30,835 bases of DNA, from positions 1 through 30,835 of IMG/VR virus record IMGVR_UViG_3300010392_000686. One strand, written 5' to 3'. A model generated the notes under the pieces. It saw only the letters and a list, made by a program, of their open reading frames with translations. It did no database searches and was not told where the DNA came from. The position numbers and the translations under genes are program-made. Positions 3,740 through 29,787 of the stretch are shown one piece after another; position 1 is the first letter of the stretch, and every line of letters begins with the position of its first letter. The stretch comes from a virus.

Positions 3740-3792
3740 CCACGCGAGCCCCGCCGGACAAGATCCCGGCGGGGCTTTCGAGGTAGGAGGAC
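3740..3792 (+). repeat. 53-bp terminator/RBS cassette, copy 1
   Basis: This 53-bp segment is identical to 8468-8520. It comprises the hairpin at 3747-3776, a short TTTCG tail and a strong ribosome site (GTAGGAGGA) for the next gene. Copy 1 follows the major capsid gene; copy 2 follows the tail tube gene. Confidence 0.97.
3747..3776 (+). terminator. Hairpin terminator / attenuator after capsid gene
   Basis: A perfect 11-bp stem (AGCCCCGCCGG, 3747-3757, with 3766-3776) closes an 8-nt loop and is followed by TTTCG. The T run is short, so termination is probably partial and would lower expression of the genes downstream of the capsid gene. Confidence 0.8.
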
Positions 3793-8467: not shown

Positions 8468-8520
8468 CCACGCGAGCCCCGCCGGACAAGATCCCGGCGG
8501 GGCTTTCGAGGTAGGAGGAC
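8468..8520 (+). repeat. 53-bp terminator/RBS cassette, copy 2
   Basis: This segment is identical to 3740-3792 over all 53 bp, including hairpin and ribosome site. It separates the tube gene from the tail-assembly chaperone gene. Confidence 0.97.
8475..8504 (+). terminator. Hairpin terminator / attenuator after tube gene
   Basis: The same 11-bp perfect stem (8475-8485 with 8494-8504) and 8-nt loop occur as after the capsid gene, followed by TTTCG. It probably lowers downstream transcription so that chaperone and tape measure are made at far lower levels than tube. Confidence 0.8.
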
Positions 8521-20342: not shown

Positions 20343-20356
20343 GCGCCCGGATCAAG

Positions 20357-20391
20357 AAAAAGCCCCGGCTCGTGGTGGGCCGGGGCTTTTT
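20357..20391. terminator. Bidirectional rho-independent terminator
   Basis: A 13-bp stem (20357-20369 with 20379-20391) has A5 on one flank and T5 on the other, with a 9-nt loop. It would end leftward transcription of the methyltransferase unit and insulate the zinc-ribbon promoter. It is the best terminator in the window. The rest of the 20272-20450 gap holds only the promoter. Confidence 0.92.
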
Positions 20392-20450
20392 CGGGTCGGG
20401 CTCTCGCTGAAAAGCCCTATGGGTCCGGGAGCTTGGGTGTTGCTTCGCTG

Positions 20451-23224: not shown

Positions 23225-23709
23225 CCTCTTGTCCTTTCGCATCCTGATCTACTCGTGCGGCGGAGAGCGTACAGGCCCAAACCCACCGCGTCAAGAACTT
23301 CCTTCGCGTGCGCCCCCGCCCCCGCCGCCGCGCGGTCCACGATCTCGCGCTCGTTCCCGGAGAGCGCGGACCGGATCCGGACGTGGTGGACGCGCTTGGG
23401 GATCGAACCCTTCCAGCGCGAGGGCGGGAGCAGACTCACGCGCAAGGCCACGAGCCCCGCCACTGCGCAGCCCACCGCCTGGACGCGGAGCAGATCGGCG
23501 GGCTGGCTCTCGACGCGGCCCGGGCGGATCTCCATCTCCTCGACAACCGCCCGATCGGCGCCAATCCCGAGCGCCCGCGCGTGCGCGTCGATCTGACCGT
23601 CGCTCGTGCGCTCGATCGTACGACTCACACCACACGAGACAAGCCTGCCCTCGGGCGTGAACCGCGCCCATCCGAGCGCCTTCGTCCCCGGATCGATCGC
23701 GACCAGCAC
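23221..23709 (-). CDS. RuvC-like Holliday-junction nuclease
   Basis: This 162-residue protein has the RuvC pattern: IDPGTKALGWA at residues 5-15 (D6), VVEEME at 55-60 (E57 or E58), and HAKEVLDAVGLGLYAL at about 134-149 (H134, D140), together forming the acidic active-site set. The SRWKGSIPK motif of phage RuvC-like nucleases is present at 97-105. It would resolve junctions or branched DNA before packaging. Start GTG 23709 overlaps the preceding TAG. TCGTACGA at 23616-23623 encodes Arg-Thr. Confidence 0.87.
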   Translation of the reverse strand: MLVAIDPGTKALGWARFTPEGRLVSCGVSRTIERTSDGQIDAHARALGIGADRAVVEEMEIRPGRVESQPADLLRVQAVGCAVAGLVALRVSLLPPSRWKGSIPKRVHHVRIRSALSGNEREIVDRAAAGAGAHAKEVLDAVGLGLYALRRTSRSGCERTRG

Positions 23710-24236
23710 TAGCGGATCTCCAGTCGCGCGATCTCGTCCAGGAACGCGGCGCGCGCCGCGGTCGGGCTCCAGGGCGTGATCGCGATGTGGTAGGGCACCG
23801 CGGGCAGATCCAGCGGGGGATCTTGCAGGTACAGAGACTCCGTCGCGAGCATGCGCGCGTCGACCATCTCCACCGCCGGATCGAGATCGTGGGGGATCTG
23901 GAAGCGGCGCCGGACCGCGTCTCGTACGATCCACTCCAGCGCATCCCAGGACGAGCCGAGAGCGCCCTTGACGGGCGTGGGCACGTCCCCCACGTACGCC
24001 TCTTGTGCGTCGTGCAAGAGCCCCTGCACCTGCACGCCGCGCCCGAAGCCCTCGCTCTGGAGCACGCGCGCGACTAGGACAGAGTGCTGCGCCACGCTGT
24101 AGAACTCGCGACAATGGCCGTTGAACCTGCACAGGTTTGATAGCGCGTGCGCGACGTCGGAGACGAGCACGTCCCCCGCCCTCGGCTGGTTCAGGTCAAA
24201 CGCTACTCCGCTCGCGGTCTGTATCCAGTGACTCAT
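23709..24236 (-). CDS. HD-domain phosphohydrolase
   Basis: This 175-residue protein is an HD hydrolase: IAH-like DVAHALSNLCRFNGH at 27-41, the motif H75-D76 with E79 (LLHDAQEA), and D127, the last conserved metal ligand (VEMVDARMLATE). HD enzymes of this size act as phage dNTP phosphohydrolases; the dATPase DatZ of cyanophage S-2L is of the same size and fold. Specificity cannot be told from sequence alone. The start overlaps the Nudix stop (ATGA). Confidence 0.87.
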   Translation of the reverse strand: MSHWIQTASGVAFDLNQPRAGDVLVSDVAHALSNLCRFNGHCREFYSVAQHSVLVARVLQSEGFGRGVQVQGLLHDAQEAYVGDVPTPVKGALGSSWDALEWIVRDAVRRRFQIPHDLDPAVEMVDARMLATESLYLQDPPLDLPAVPYHIAITPWSPTAARAAFLDEIARLEIR

Positions 24237-24649
24237 TCGTAACCCCAGATCTTTCTAGCATCCCGCGCGAGCCGATCATAGATCGCGCGGTGGAAATCGT
24301 ATTGCATAGCCCACGCGCACGAGCGCAGCTCGGAGAGCTGGCGCATGCGCGCGCGCATGTCCGCTTCTCCCGGACCCCAGCGGCGAAAGCTTGGGAAGCG
24401 GGCGCGGTAGGCGGTGACCTGGAACGGAACCGCGCCAGGCACGATCCCCGCCCCGATCTCGTACATCTCTTGCGGGAGCAACCACACGCCGGTCTCCTCC
24501 CCCATCTCGCGCCAGGCCGCGGCGCGAGCGTCTCTGTCCTCGGGCTCGATCTTTCCCCCCGGGAGGCACACACCCCGCTTGGGGTGATCGACCGTCCACC
24601 ACGTCCCCGGGATGTGCCCCGGGACTGCGATCACCACTGCTCGCTTCAT
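24233..24649 (-). CDS. Nudix hydrolase
   Basis: This 138-residue protein contains a Nudix box: GGKIEPEDRDARAAAWREMG followed by EETGV. It is close to G-x5-E-x7-REUxEExGU but with one extra residue before RE and Asp in place of the first Glu. The REMGEETGV catalytic part is intact. Nudix enzymes cleave nucleoside diphosphate derivatives and often clean nucleotide pools. Start ATG 24649 overlaps the polymerase stop (ATGA). Substrate unknown. Confidence 0.85.
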   Translation of the reverse strand: MKRAVVIAVPGHIPGTWWTVDHPKRGVCLPGGKIEPEDRDARAAAWREMGEETGVWLLPQEMYEIGAGIVPGAVPFQVTAYRARFPSFRRWGPGEADMRARMRQLSELRSCAWAMQYDFHRAIYDRLARDARKIWGYE

Positions 24650-26688
24650 GCCGCTGCCCTGATCCTCTCCTCTTCGAACCCGAACGCCCACGAGAGATGG
24701 ATCGGATCGGCTCCCGCGTCAAGCGCTTCTCGGATCTTTTCTGCGGTCTCGGGATGCATCGTACGATCCTCGTACGGGATCAGGCGCCCGGTCTCGTCGT
24801 ACGTCGGCTCCGCGCCCTTGCGCCAGCGGTAGGAGATCGCAGGCTCCGCGGCGGGGGGCGCGTCCGGACACCAGAGCCGGCCCGAGGTCTCCATGATCTC
24901 GACCATGCGCGCGGCGCAGTCGTGCATCGTCGGGATCGGGACTTCCGCGATGTACTCGTCATGTACGAAGTTCCACGGGCGCGCCTCGTTCAGCGGTCCG
25001 CGGTCCGCTCCGTAGAACTCGCGCGTAAGGCTCCAGCCCGCGTGCTTCGCCATGTCCGCGGTATGGCCCTGGAAGTACGAGTTCGCGGCGGACGTGTACC
25101 GCAGATCTCCGCGGAGCCGATCGGACATGAAGTGTCTAAGCGGCTGTCCCGTCTCCAGTAGCGCGTTGATGTGCTGGAAGTAGCCCCCCATCTCGGAATA
25201 GAGGCGGAACCACCACGCCCGCAGCTCCCGCGCCTCATCGTCCGTGAGGATCACGCCGTAGGTCTTGGCTGCGTAGAGGCGGAACTTCTCGACTCCGAGC
25301 CCGCCCGGGAAACCGAAGTTGGCCGCCTTCCCGCCCTGGCGCGCCTCCTTCGCCGCGCGCTTGGCGTCCGGACCGTGCGAGCCCTGTAGCGCCTCCATGG
25401 CCCACTCGTACTCCCACGAGCGCATGTGGGCGCCAAAGTTCATGTGCGCATCGCGGCCCGAGTTCAGGACCGCCCCGAGATCGCTCCCGAGTCCGAGCCA
25501 TGTGCAGACCTGAGAGAGCGAGTGCAGTTCCGCCGCGCGCCAGTCCACGGAGACGAGCACATAGCCCGGGCGTGCCACGTAGCACTCCCGGAGTCCCGGC
25601 TCACGGTTCAAGTTCTGGACTTGATCCCCGAACGACGCAAGCGGCTTTCCGGGCTTTACGTCCCCCATGGAGCTTGATGTTCGTCCCGTGTTCTTGAGCA
25701 CGTCGAAGAACGGCTGGATCGGGATCTCCCCCGCCAGCGCGAGCCGTTCCGCGCGCCGCCGCAACGTTCCAACCGACGTGTAGCGCGCGTAAGCTATCAG
25801 GATCTCGTCCCCCGTAGCAGCGCACGCGTCCGCGTCCAGGGCGGTGTATTTCTCCTCGGCTTCCGCGCGCTCGATCTCGCCTTCGTGGACGCGCCGCCGC
25901 CCCGTTTTCGTCAGCGGGATCGGGAGCCCCGCCGCGCTCCGCTCCAGTCGCATTCGCTCCGAGGCCCGCTTCGTGTTCTTGCTCCCGTCGGATCGTACGA
26001 GCCCCGCGATCTGGAGCCTCGCGCGGACGTCCTCGTGCTCGATCTCGACCTTGCGCGCGAACGCAGCAACCGCCCGGGCGTCGGTGCGCATGCCGCGGCA
26101 GCGCTGGAGATAGAGCGAGAAGCCCGCGCGCGCCTGGCGGTGCTCGTCTCGGAGGCACTCCGCGCGCGCCTCCTGTGCCTCGTACAGCGCGGAGACGTCC
26201 AGGTCCGCCAGAGCATACCGGCGCGCGTCCTCGGGCCAGAGATCGACCGCTAAGCCGTCCAGCTCCGCGTACCGCGTCCGCCACGAGCCCGGACCCTTGC
26301 TCTTGTCCCCCGCCTCGAACATGTGGGGGATCTTGTGGCGCTCTAGGCACGTCATGAGCCCGTGCGCCTGGAAGCGCGCCGCGGTGCCTTGCGCGATCCG
26401 GAGCAGCTTCTCCCGCAGCTCCGTGCACGTGACGCGATCGTCTGTGTAGGCGTCGAGCCAGAGCGGTAGCAGGCGCGGGCGGCTTGCGATCGTGCACGCC
26501 GCGTCGAAGGCGACGTTATGCCCTACGATGCGCGCGCCTCCGAGCAGCGCGCTCTCCAGCCGATCTAGTCCCGCCTCCCGCAGCTCGATCCGGTCTCCGG
26601 TCTCGTCGCGGGACTGGACGCAGACGACGCGGGGCGCCTGGCGCCCGGGCCTGATCGGGTAGGTCTCCGTGTCGAAGAACAGAATCAC
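24646..26688 (-). CDS. Family A DNA polymerase with 3'-5' exonuclease
   Basis: This 680-residue replicative polymerase has an N-terminal proofreading domain with exonuclease motifs D6/E8 (FDTETY), N58...D62 (HNVAFD) and D164 (ADLDVSALYE), then the polymerase domain. Motif A is VDWRAAEL (D382, E387). Motif B has R450, K454 and F458 in GKAANFGFPGG, at the same spacing as the E. coli Pol I O helix, but with Gly at the usual Tyr. Motif C is VHDE (H576, D577, E578). All catalytic residues are present. It lacks a 5' nuclease domain, as phage enzymes do. GTG start overlaps the upstream stop as GTGA. Two TCGTACGA copies lie inside. Confidence 0.95.
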   Translation of the reverse strand: MILFFDTETYPIRPGRQAPRVVCVQSRDETGDRIELREAGLDRLESALLGGARIVGHNVAFDAACTIASRPRLLPLWLDAYTDDRVTCTELREKLLRIAQGTAARFQAHGLMTCLERHKIPHMFEAGDKSKGPGSWRTRYAELDGLAVDLWPEDARRYALADLDVSALYEAQEARAECLRDEHRQARAGFSLYLQRCRGMRTDARAVAAFARKVEIEHEDVRARLQIAGLVRSDGSKNTKRASERMRLERSAAGLPIPLTKTGRRRVHEGEIERAEAEEKYTALDADACAATGDEILIAYARYTSVGTLRRRAERLALAGEIPIQPFFDVLKNTGRTSSSMGDVKPGKPLASFGDQVQNLNREPGLRECYVARPGYVLVSVDWRAAELHSLSQVCTWLGLGSDLGAVLNSGRDAHMNFGAHMRSWEYEWAMEALQGSHGPDAKRAAKEARQGGKAANFGFPGGLGVEKFRLYAAKTYGVILTDDEARELRAWWFRLYSEMGGYFQHINALLETGQPLRHFMSDRLRGDLRYTSAANSYFQGHTADMAKHAGWSLTREFYGADRGPLNEARPWNFVHDEYIAEVPIPTMHDCAARMVEIMETSGRLWCPDAPPAAEPAISYRWRKGAEPTYDETGRLIPYEDRTMHPETAEKIREALDAGADPIHLSWAFGFEEERIRAAA

Positions 26689-27197
26689 CGCGCGACCCCC
26701 CGCCCCTTACGACACGCCTTGCAGTGCGGTTGCCGTCCGTCGCGGTGCGCGCGGCTTCGGTGGTAGGCTTCCAGCGGCTTCGGCTCCGAGCACTTCCCGC
26801 ACACCTTGCGGGCCGCGTCAATCGGATTCTCACGGCTCCATTCGAGCAGGTTCGCGTACCACTCCGCGGCGGACGGGAGATCGTCCGGGTGTCCCGCCTT
26901 GCGCCACCACGCGAGGAACGCGTCCAGGCTCTCCCGGAGCTGCGCCCGGAACGCGGACGCGGTCACGGACGTGGCGGACGAGCCCGGGAGACGACACCGT
27001 CTCTCCGCCGCTGGCCAGTAGTCCCGGGACCCGCACTTGAGGCACTCTTGCGGACTGTCCGAGTCCCCGGGCTCGCTCCAGTCGTGCGTCTCGTGGAGAT
27101 CTAGGGGCTTCTCGGGGTCGTACGATCCAGCGGGATCAGCTTCGGCTCGCTCGATCGATATCGCATGGTTAATTGCGGCGAGATCTGATGTGTCCAC
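26685..27197 (-). CDS. Two-zinc-finger protein, HNH/endonuclease VII-like
   Basis: This 170-residue protein has an N-terminal Cys cluster (C52-x2-C55, then C68) and a C-terminal finger CGKCSEPKPLEAYHRSRAHRDGRQPHCKACRK (C133-x2-C136, C159-x2-C162), common next to HNH and endonuclease VII-like nucleases. The catalytic nuclease core is not obvious, so it may be DNA-binding only. It precedes the polymerase gene in the same coupled unit. Its GTG start is directly adjacent to a structured leader that can occlude the ribosome site. TCGTACGA at 27118-27125 encodes Ser-Tyr-Asp. Confidence 0.78.
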   Translation of the reverse strand: MDTSDLAAINHAISIERAEADPAGSYDPEKPLDLHETHDWSEPGDSDSPQECLKCGSRDYWPAAERRCRLPGSSATSVTASAFRAQLRESLDAFLAWWRKAGHPDDLPSAAEWYANLLEWSRENPIDAARKVCGKCSEPKPLEAYHRSRAHRDGRQPHCKACRKGRGVAR

Positions 27198-27283
27198 GGG
27201 GCGCTCCGTCTGAAAGAGAGCGCCCCGATCCGGCCCGTGAACGTGTGTTGCTTTGTGCGTTCGAGGGGACCGGATCGGGGCGC
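27198..27283 (-). promoter_or_regulatory. Structured leader with two exclusive hairpins over the RBS
   Basis: In the minus-strand RNA a 14-bp perfect stem (27283-27270 with 27233-27220) can form. A second 9-bp stem (27226-27218 with 27206-27198) has an 11-nt loop and contains the Shine-Dalgarno GGAG in its 3' arm, directly before the GTG at 27197. The stems share bases 27220-27226, so only one can exist at a time. If stem 1 forms, the ribosome site is free; if stem 2 forms it is buried. This is the layout of a translational switch. The ligand or protein is unknown. Confidence 0.65.
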
Positions 27284-28008
27284 GGGGTCGTGCTCCTGTT
27301 CTCGTTCAGTCGATCGGCCGGATCTCACCCGCCGCGTTGTAGACGTGCGTTCCGTGGCGCGGGTCCCCCGCCGGGAAGGCGAAGAACCCGTCCGGGATCG
27401 CGGGCGGGGCCGCGGGCGGGGCCGCGGGGGCGGCGGGGGCGGCGGGAGCCGACGCGGCGGAGGCCGCGGGGGTCGGGCTCGCCACGCTCGCGCTCGCGCC
27501 CTGCGCTCGCGCCAGATCGGCGGGATCGACGGGAGCCCAGCTGTGCTTCGTCATGGTCGAGTTCCTGGTCTTGTGCTCCCACGCCTCGGTGCGGAGCAGC
27601 TTCCCCTTGTGCGGGTTGTCCGCCGCGACCGCGGCCTCCATCTTGCTCTCGATCTCGGGGTCCGCGTCGATCTCCTCGGGAGTCATCCCGCAGAGAAGCC
27701 CGATGACAAGCTTCGTCTCCCCCATCCCGATCTTGCCCCACTGTCCGTCGATCTGCGTCGTCCAGGACCCTTCCGCGCCCACGGGCGTGGGCGCGACCCC
27801 GGGCGTCCGCTCGCTCGCGGGAAGCACGGGCGTGGCCTCCATGATGAACCGGAGTCCGTTGTGTCCCTGCTTCACGCTCAAGCGCTCGATCCGGACCGCG
27901 GGATAGATCCCCGCGTTGAAACGGGAACTGTTCCCGCGCGCGCTCGTCTGGCTGGCACCACTGAAAAATCCACTCATGTCCTGTCCTGTTCCTTCCGCCC
28001 CGATCCGG
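27221..28008. repeat. 13-bp CGCCCCGATCCGG element, three copies
   Basis: The 13-mer occurs at 27221-27233, inverted at 27270-27282, and at 27996-28008, thus on both sides of the ssDNA-binding-like gene. The first two form part of the leader stem; the third lies in the 73-bp gap upstream of that gene and is itself part of a GCCCC/GGGGC hairpin. A protein made by the gene or polymerase unit could bind them. Confidence 0.75.
27306..27977 (-). CDS. OB-fold-like ssDNA-binding protein candidate
   Basis: This 223-residue protein starts at ATG 27977 after an AGGACAGGAC ribosome site. Residues 15-150 look like an OB-type domain: RFNAGIYPAVRIERLSVKQG, GLRFIMEATPVL, GSWTTQIDGQW and a LRTEAWEHKTRNSTMTKHSW segment, resembling phage ssDNA-binding proteins found beside polymerases. 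A linker of Ala/Pro repeats (about 161-195) follows, then a short conserved-looking tail ending AAGEIRPID. The linker and C-terminal tip are typical of single-stranded DNA-binding proteins. It lies between the polymerase unit and the helicase, supporting the role. Confidence 0.75.
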   Translation of the reverse strand: MSGFFSGASQTSARGNSSRFNAGIYPAVRIERLSVKQGHNGLRFIMEATPVLPASERTPGVAPTPVGAEGSWTTQIDGQWGKIGMGETKLVIGLLCGMTPEEIDADPEIESKMEAAVAADNPHKGKLLRTEAWEHKTRNSTMTKHSWAPVDPADLARAQGASASVASPTPAASAASAPAAPAAPAAPPAAPPAIPDGFFAFPAGDPRHGTHVYNAAGEIRPID

Positions 28009-28050: not shown

Positions 28051-29787
28051 TTACGTGACCTTGACCCATTGCGGTCCGGTCCTCTCGCGCGTCGTCTCCA
28101 GATCTTCGACGTCCTCCAGGTCCGCGTGACACAGCTTTTGTGCCTGTCCTGTGACGTCCTCCGCATACTCCGAGTCTTCGACCGCGCGCCAGAAACCCTG
28201 GGAATCTTCGACACAGCCGAATAGCACGTCTACGTGAACGGCGCCAGCTTTTTGTCCGTCGCGGTGCGTCCGCCCGAGTAGCTGTTCCCATTTCGCCCCG
28301 TTCGGCGGGACGTCAACGATCAGGTTCCTGTGCCATGCCTGGAGATTGCGCCCCGTGGCGTTCGCCTCGATCGAGACGACCGCCGGCCCGGACGCGGGGG
28401 CGTGCGACTCTAGCACGCGCCCCGTGCTCGCGTCAACCCCCATGTTCCCGTAGTACGGGAGTCCGTGGCGCGCCGCCAGGCGCTCCCCGATCGCGGGGCG
28501 CTCCGTCCAGATCAGGGGCGCGCTCGGTTGCTTGGCTGCCCACGCCGCGATCCAGTCGATCGTACGATCTGAGATCCAGACCGCTTCCGCGTTCGGCTTG
28601 AAGGTGGGCTCGATCGCGAGCCAGTCCGCCAACGTGCGCGCGGCGTGGGGGTAGTCCCCCGCCTCCACCGCGCGCCTGACCTGCAGCTCCGTGTCGAGCT
28701 GGCGCTTGTTGTTCGAGAGGATCTCCCGGCAGAGAGAAGCCCACGCGCGGCGCGCGTCCCGCCAGTCGTCTGGCGGGCGCGGGTTCCATCGCGAGAAGAA
28801 CCCGGACGCCAGCTCCCGCGCGTGCCTCCACATGGCCACGCCGTCCTCGATCGGCCACTCGTCCGGCGTGCTCCAGTCGTTTCGGAGCGTCTCGTACAGG
28901 TCCACGTGATCGGGGTCCAGCTCCACCGCGTGGGAGCGCACGACGAGATCGATCGGGAGCGGCGGATCCTGAGTCGCGACCACGCCCGGGCTCTCCAGCA
29001 TGCGGCGCCGGAAGGCCACTCGGAGCGGCTCCGCGGGCGTGCGTCGAAGGCGCCCGAGAGCGCCCGGGGCAAGGCGCCTGCTCGGATGGACGTTCACGTC
29101 CAGCGCCCGAGACCACTCGTCAAGATCGTTGAACTCTGTGGGGGTCGGGTTGTTCCCGCGGAGAGCCCACGACGAGAGATGCGCGAAGTCTCGGATCGAG
29201 CGCTTCGTGATCGTCCCGCTCATGGCCACGAACGCGCACGAGATCTCGCCCCGGTACGCGCGGCGCATGTAGCGCGCGAGCCGCTTTGTGCAGGCCGCGC
29301 TCCCGTTCTTGAGGTAGTGCGCTTCGTCCGCGATGATGAGGTCCGGCTCGTACTGCTCGATCAGATCCTTTCCCGAGATCCGGGAGAGGGTCTGGTACGA
29401 CTCGACGCGGACGAACGCGGGCAGGATCCAGTGCTTCCGCAGCTCCGTCTTCTCGCGCTCCGTCTTCTCCCGGAGATGCGCGGGAACGAGGACGAGCGGG
29501 CGCTTGACGCCCGGGAGCACGCGCGCCGCTAGCAGAGAGATCAGGGTCTTGCCTCCGCCCACGCGGATCGGGAACAGCCCGCCTTGCCACTGCGCGATCT
29601 CGGAGAGCGCTACGCCCTGGATCGGGCGGAGGCTCATCTGCCCGCGCGGCGTGCGCAGCGCTTGGGTCCAGCGCGCGGCCCACTCCGCCGCGCTCTCGGG
29701 CGTCCAGATCCGGCGCGGGATCGCTTCCACGCGTCGCAGCTCCGACGTGTCTTGTACGGCCCCGCGGCCGGTTCCGAACGCCCCCAT
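28051..29787 (-). CDS. SNF2-like helicase / DNA translocase
   Basis: This 578-residue protein is a superfamily 2 ATPase: Walker A GGGKT (77-81), motif II DEAH (154-157), motif III SGT (190-192), and motif VI QLLGRTHRDGQ (about 502-512). An N-terminal RPIQGVALSEI segment matches the Q-type motif. A helical insertion rich in Arg and Trp (about 310-400) separates the two ATPase lobes. It probably unwinds or remodels DNA during replication. It is a probable partner of the polymerase. TCGTACGA lies at 28560-28567. Confidence 0.92.
   Translation of the reverse strand: MGAFGTGRGAVQDTSELRRVEAIPRRIWTPESAAEWAARWTQALRTPRGQMSLRPIQGVALSEIAQWQGGLFPIRVGGGKTLISLLAARVLPGVKRPLVLVPAHLREKTEREKTELRKHWILPAFVRVESYQTLSRISGKDLIEQYEPDLIIADEAHYLKNGSAACTKRLARYMRRAYRGEISCAFVAMSGTITKRSIRDFAHLSSWALRGNNPTPTEFNDLDEWSRALDVNVHPSRRLAPGALGRLRRTPAEPLRVAFRRRMLESPGVVATQDPPLPIDLVVRSHAVELDPDHVDLYETLRNDWSTPDEWPIEDGVAMWRHARELASGFFSRWNPRPPDDWRDARRAWASLCREILSNNKRQLDTELQVRRAVEAGDYPHAARTLADWLAIEPTFKPNAEAVWISDRTIDWIAAWAAKQPSAPLIWTERPAIGERLAARHGLPYYGNMGVDASTGRVLESHAPASGPAVVSIEANATGRNLQAWHRNLIVDVPPNGAKWEQLLGRTHRDGQKAGAVHVDVLFGCVEDSQGFWRAVEDSEYAEDVTGQAQKLCHADLEDVEDLETTRERTGPQWVKVT

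Follow-up and report, generated by a model that had tools for sequence, protein, structure and literature searches.

The window, by which we mean the whole stretch of DNA analysed here, is a 30.8-kb IMG/VR virus record (IMGVR_UViG_3300010392_000686, positions 1-30,835) with 69% G+C and no close nucleotide relatives among phage records. Its minus strand carries the following genes, whose starts were assigned by simple rules:

28051..29787, minus strand, SNF2-type helicase gene, upstream of the ssb-like gene and the anchor of the conserved gene order
27306..27977, minus strand, ssb-like gene (223 aa), the gene upstream of the stem 1 element
26685..27197, minus strand, zinc-finger (znf) gene (170 aa, GTG start), with homologs in the related loci L092, L096, L097 and L117 only
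24646..26688, minus strand, family A DNA polymerase gene (680 aa; Pfam DNA_pol_A, E 1.4e-10; phrog_17, E 7.5e-38)
24233..24691, minus strand, NUDIX hydrolase gene, overlapping the end of the polymerase gene
23709..24236, minus strand, HD deoxyribonucleoside 5'-monophosphatase gene (phrog_318, E 5.9e-51)

An earlier, sequence-only reading of this DNA linked the zinc-finger gene to the polymerase and the genes downstream, and the genes overlap as claimed, with the znf stop and the polymerase start sharing GTGA at 26688-26685. The GTG at 27197 is the sole standard in-frame start of the znf ORF. The window shows no sign of a phage RNA polymerase, so transcription is presumably carried out by the host polymerase.

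Compared with its homologs, the znf protein has about 35 additional N-terminal residues (27096-27197), which the homologs lack and which include a GSYDP stretch encoded across a TCGTACGA site. This palindrome is present in 22 copies in the window against 1.05 expected, roughly every 1.4 kb and mostly within genes (e.g. at 266, 979, 2929, 3729, 5490, 6213, 11437, 12517, 15204, 18290, 21488, 23922, 27118, 28560 and 30453). This pattern is like that of HIP1, a highly iterated palindrome, and the seven related loci checked lack the word. The word ATCGTACGAT occurs 7 times against 0.07 expected, and other loci over-represent 8-mers of their own (GTTTAAAC in L012, CCTCGAGG in L040). A tandem 21-nt repeat, GCGGTCCCGCCCGAGGGCGGT, occupies positions 1-82 at the very start of the record.

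The ssb-like protein has no match in Pfam and one marginal match, of unknown function, in PHROG, and a search with its profile against PDB sequences returned nothing useful. Weak matches to Pfam DUF669 and phrog_378 (SSB) were found in relatives only. The top Foldseek match of its AlphaFold model (pLDDT 87) is the OB-fold ssDNA-binding protein PrgE, although this match is weak (E 0.035, prob 0.85); RPA and Sulfolobus SSB rank below it, and no structural match is significant. A profile HMM built from the window protein places the gene behind the same helicase in 133 loci, of which 102 are distinct. Gene order and the weak fold match together suggest that the gene is SSB-like.

Around this gene, chiefly in the leader that separates it from the znf gene, are the following elements:

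27996..28008, minus strand, second copy of CCGGATCGGGGCG, just upstream of the ssb ribosome site
27283-27270, minus strand, 5' arm of stem 1 (GCGCCCCGATCCGG), pairing with 27233-27220
27239..27262, minus strand, small hairpin predicted within the stem 1 loop (GAACG 27262-27258 with CGTTC 27243-27239)
27233-27220, minus strand, 3' arm of stem 1 (CCGGATCGGGGCGC), forming 14 perfect pairs with the 5' arm across a loop of 36 nt
27227-27218, minus strand, 5' arm of stem 2 (CGGGGCGCTC), sharing 27220-27227 with stem 1
27212..27219, minus strand, U-rich tail TCTCTTTC, adjoining the 3' end of stem 1, with 5 U in 8 and a tail score of 2.1
27207-27204, minus strand, putative znf ribosome site GGAG, assigned from sequence, 6 nt ahead of GTG 27197
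27206-27197, minus strand, 3' arm of stem 2 (GAGCGCCCCG), covering GAG of GGAG and the G of GTG

The distance from the ssb-like stop codon to stem 1 is 22 nt, and the stem's end reads GCGC-TCTCTTTC. Perfect stems as long as stem 1 (14 bp or more, loop up to 60) are found twice in the window, whereas 40 dinucleotide shuffles of the whole sequence contain 0.075 on average. The second of the two lies at 20356-20392, where units converge; it is a clear bidirectional terminator, with tail scores of 3.75 and 4.38 compared with 2.1 for TCTCTTTC. The predicted energies of the isolated hairpins are -42.6 kcal/mol for stem 1 and -21.8 kcal/mol for stem 2, and the 126-nt leader as a whole folds with a z-score of -4.06, a stability equalled by 0/200 shuffles. 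Stem 1 was not listed by a standard terminator scan that allows loops of 3-8 only. Rfam covariance models gave no gathering-level match in the window, so no curated riboswitch family was recognised, and no viral contig carrying the same stem arms was found.

The sequence-only reading described a 14-bp and a 9-bp stem competing for bases 27220-27226. Both stems are real and they overlap, but stem 2 is one pair longer than stated (10, not 9), since the GTG start contributes a paired G, and the overlap covers 8 nt (27220-27227). Its loop is 11 nt long. Stem 2 would indeed mask the GGAG as that reading proposed, with the ribosome site and start codon lying inside the helix as in the masking hairpins of the T4 e/soc/49 type. 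Of 20,000 shuffles of the adjacent 24 nt, 3 gave at least 10 bp of complementarity to the region of the stem 1 3' arm, so that stem 2 is unlikely to be a chance product, although 0.5% of real 24-mers of this G+C-rich window show as much. The stems were also said to be mutually exclusive, which holds only in part, because upper stem 1 and the whole of stem 2 can coexist; the minimum-energy fold of the 126-nt leader combines stem 2 with a shortened stem 1.

Which stem prevails in prediction, where only nested folds were modelled, depends on the chosen ends of the RNA. The outer pairs of stem 1 have probabilities mostly of 0.7-1.0 across the stretches folded but 0.09 in one, and stem 2 reaches 0.91 when 27308-27160 is folded. 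In a growing RNA, stem 1 is predicted to be complete once its 3' arm has been made, at a point where stem 2 still lacks its second arm. For the ribosome site and start codon, the predicted cost of opening is about 7.6 kcal/mol in the full leader and 15-18 kcal/mol without the 5' arm of stem 1. The claim that stem 1 opens the site is therefore physically reasonable. The need for a ligand or protein to stabilise stem 1 finds no such support, as the stem is already stable and forms first. Since stem 1 wins in most contexts and opening is costlier without its 5' arm, stem 2 would be expected mainly in RNAs that lack this arm. One possibility is that it serves as a back-up lock where the RNA is 5'-truncated; another is that it simply results from the repetition of GCGCCCCG words.

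Relatives of the locus were collected with polymerase and helicase alignments, which yielded 148 IMG/VR loci (some on shared contigs) and 9 loci in prokaryote genomes, chiefly Myxococcus prophages. Single-protein scans with the polymerase and the ssb-like protein gave no matches, and alignments were required to reach these relatives. The order helicase, ssb-like gene, (other genes), polymerase is common to them. The four znf-bearing loci are the closest, most of them also having the C-terminal motif of the ssb-like protein around GDPRHGTHYY, and their ssb-znf gaps differ in sequence.

Candidate terminators were ranked by stem, loop and tail with an ad hoc score whose scheme and thresholds were devised in this analysis. 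A hairpin with a U tail lies within 123 nt of the end of the ssb-like gene in 22/91 non-redundant loci, against 2.7 expected from shuffles. At a strict score of at least 40, 14/91 loci qualify after ssb, compared with 0.0 in shuffles, 0/90 before ssb, 0/91 inside ssb, 0/88 after the helicase and 0/88 after the polymerase. The last two controls are partly confounded, because genes are tightly packed there, and the before-ssb control is less so. In a wider set the numbers are 31/102 after ssb against 31/510 shuffles and against 3/98 and 3/98 in comparison sets; stem 1 of the window, with a score of 51.6, ranks fifth of these 31 despite its weak tail. The corresponding stems start mostly 3-24 nt past the ssb stop, and several are plain terminators (L048, L040, L020, L030, L135, L055, L096 and L097). 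Among the closest relatives, L096 and L097 have a GC-rich hairpin with a TTTGGTTC tail in the ssb-znf gap, which is an ordinary intrinsic terminator, and the other two (L092 and L117) show no clear U-tailed hairpin. Most related loci fall below the strict threshold, and in 28/100 no more than 60 nt lie between ssb and the polymerase start.

With respect to conservation in relatives, stem 1's kind of element is thus kept in position, whereas the stem 2 pairing does not recur. Pairing between the ribosome site and the terminator arm has a mean z of -0.34 over 16 loci, with only L040 comparable to the window, and we rejected it as a shared feature of the lineage. L067, which by its fold could be a second three-arm case, was not counted, its hairpin being below the terminator threshold. 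In the Myxococcus prophages L083-L090, ssb and polymerase are separated by about 80 nt (e.g. L083:6914-6994) that hold two conserved hairpins, with GGCCC-ACG(T/A)CAC-GGGCC in 8/8 of the gaps; this element fails the terminator score.

Hairpins also follow virion genes. An exact 53-nt direct repeat, which contains an 11-bp hairpin, a short U tail and a ribosome site, occurs in the window at 3740-3792 after the major capsid gene (phrog_264, E 2.6e-63) and at 8468-8520 after a tail-tube-like gene. In the seven relatives with an identifiable capsid gene, a strong hairpin lies directly 3' of it, and several of these are U-tailed (e.g. in L169 and L170). The hairpins after capsid genes favour the view that terminators are generally placed behind genes whose products are abundant.

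We hypothesize, with a probability of about 0.74, that stem 1 and TCTCTTTC form a leaky intrinsic terminator that holds expression of the polymerase unit down while that of the SSB-like protein stays high. Stem 1 is a stable G+C-rich hairpin of the kind found in intrinsic terminators, and it lies shortly past a stop codon, at a position conserved in relatives. Most transcripts would stop behind the ssb-like gene, and a read-through minority would carry the znf-polymerase-nudix-HD unit; with few transcripts reading through, the SSB-like protein would be made in excess over the polymerase. On the read-through RNA, stem 1 would already be folded and the GGAG site left only weakly structured. Stem 2 would mask the GGAG mainly in RNAs that, through cleavage or an internal start for example, lack stem 1's 5' arm, and would be a back-up lock at most. 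The tail score of 2.1 and the loop of 36 nt weaken the case for a terminator, and the host's terminator rules may differ. The surroundings of the element nevertheless point to a transcription signal rather than a ligand switch, and the terminator is better supported than a switch operated by a ligand or protein, as is clear from the relatives.

The leader could instead control translation through three arms, with the 5' arm of stem 1 acting as an anti-sequestor and the shared segment, once freed, allowing stem 2 to mask the znf ribosome site. The trigger might be the SSB-like protein, bound to the 5' arm or the loop, or else cleavage of the RNA or an internal start, and the overlapping genes would pass the masking of znf on, lowering translation of the polymerase. 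We consider this account unlikely. It would explain why stem 2 is exact over 10 bp, is centred on the ribosome site and start codon and is so rarely matched in shuffles, and it draws on the higher opening cost upon removal of the 5' arm and on the closeness of the two folds, whose predicted winner changes when other ends are chosen (the outer pairs of stem 1 range from 0.09 to 1.0). The early formation of stem 1 and its dominance in most contexts argue against such control, as does the lack of recurrence of the pairing, and the account has no ligand, binding-protein or promoter support. In particular, no promoter-like site was predicted in the leader, where sigma-70 type sites were sought, which may not be the host's rules. 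A combined arrangement seems somewhat less probable again, in which the 3' arm would be both terminator strand and ribosome-site lock and the 5' arm the anti-sequestor, so that the polymerase unit would be translatable only from transcripts that come through ssb. Such a dual role would hard-wire the order in which SSB precedes polymerase.

Two further readings concern repeated words, and both are far less probable. As the sequence-only reading had noted, the stem arms match an element on the other side of ssb: the 13-mer CCGGATCGGGGCG of the stem 1 3' arm recurs at 28008-27996, where it overlaps a 6-bp hairpin (28011-28006/28002-27997). This match is beyond chance, being the longest word shared by two ssb flanks among 101 loci, with a maximum of 11 in 1,500 mismatched pairings. 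The same arms might act as DNA, as a repressor operator or another DNA-binding site with the RNA stems as a by-product. The recurrence of CCGGATCGGGGCG before ssb would suit this, as would the presence of GCGCCCCG three times in alternating orientation within 87 bp. The absence of predicted sigma-70 type sites from the leader goes against it, and the relatives differ in sequence yet keep the hairpin-plus-U-tail form, which fits an RNA role; we regard a DNA site as very unlikely. Autoregulation as in T4 gp32, which was also put forward on the strength of the match, appears the least probable of all. Here the SSB-like protein would bind CCGGATCGGGGCG before ssb and in the leader and repress translation of both units, and T4 gp32 and gp43 are indeed both autogenous repressors (PMC535899, PMC3014915). 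No comparable word is shared by the ssb flanks of other loci, and we rejected the repeated word as a lineage feature, since it occurs only in this window. The gp32 operator needs a pseudoknot and UUAAA repeats (PMC535899); the window element is G+C-rich and folded, and TTAAA is absent from both 27308-27195 and 28054-27977, so that neither ssb flank offers the UUAAA of that operator. We found no positive evidence for this autoregulation.

The leaky terminator has counterparts in well-studied phages. The closest published parallel is the set of predicted terminators in T4-like genomes, found after gene 32 (SSB) in 5/6 and after gene 23 in 6/6 (PMC1524935). There too the SSB gene is directly followed by a hairpin, as is a virion gene of high expression, and the positions are conserved. 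The lineage of the window differs in having a family A polymerase, a SNF2-type helicase, 69% G+C and a weaker U tail, and in that a downstream stem shares the 3' arm of the terminator and covers the next ribosome site. In T7, genes 11 and 12 are expressed solely via read-through of the terminator behind capsid gene 10 (PMC5592923). The likeness to this T-phi terminator lies in partial termination inside a gene series with downstream genes reached by read-through, although T-phi is recognised by T7 RNA polymerase and the window element presumably by the host polymerase. The T4 gp32 operator, a pseudoknot followed by UUAAA repeats (PMC535899), likewise combines an SSB gene with RNA structure close to a ribosome site, but it sits before the ssb gene itself, and the window element contains neither UUAAA nor A+U-rich sequence. 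Hairpins that mask ribosome sites are known from T4 genes e, soc, 49 and I-TevI (PMC3014915), where, as in stem 2, the ribosome site and start codon are inside the helix. In gene e long transcripts are locked and short ones open (PMC3014915); the logic predicted for the window runs the other way, since a long transcript contains the 5' arm, which breaks up the lock.

The comparison of about 100 related loci shows that an uncultured phage lineage recurrently puts hairpin terminators behind its SSB-like gene, and in the relatives checked the capsid gene is likewise followed by strong hairpins. This solution matches that of T4-like and T7 phages, in which abundant proteins are made in excess over their operon neighbours. 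T4-like phages have documented terminators behind their SSB and capsid genes, so this kind of element is already known, and the window adds an instance whose twist is possibly new: if stem 2 is functional, a simple three-arm design would join termination and translation.
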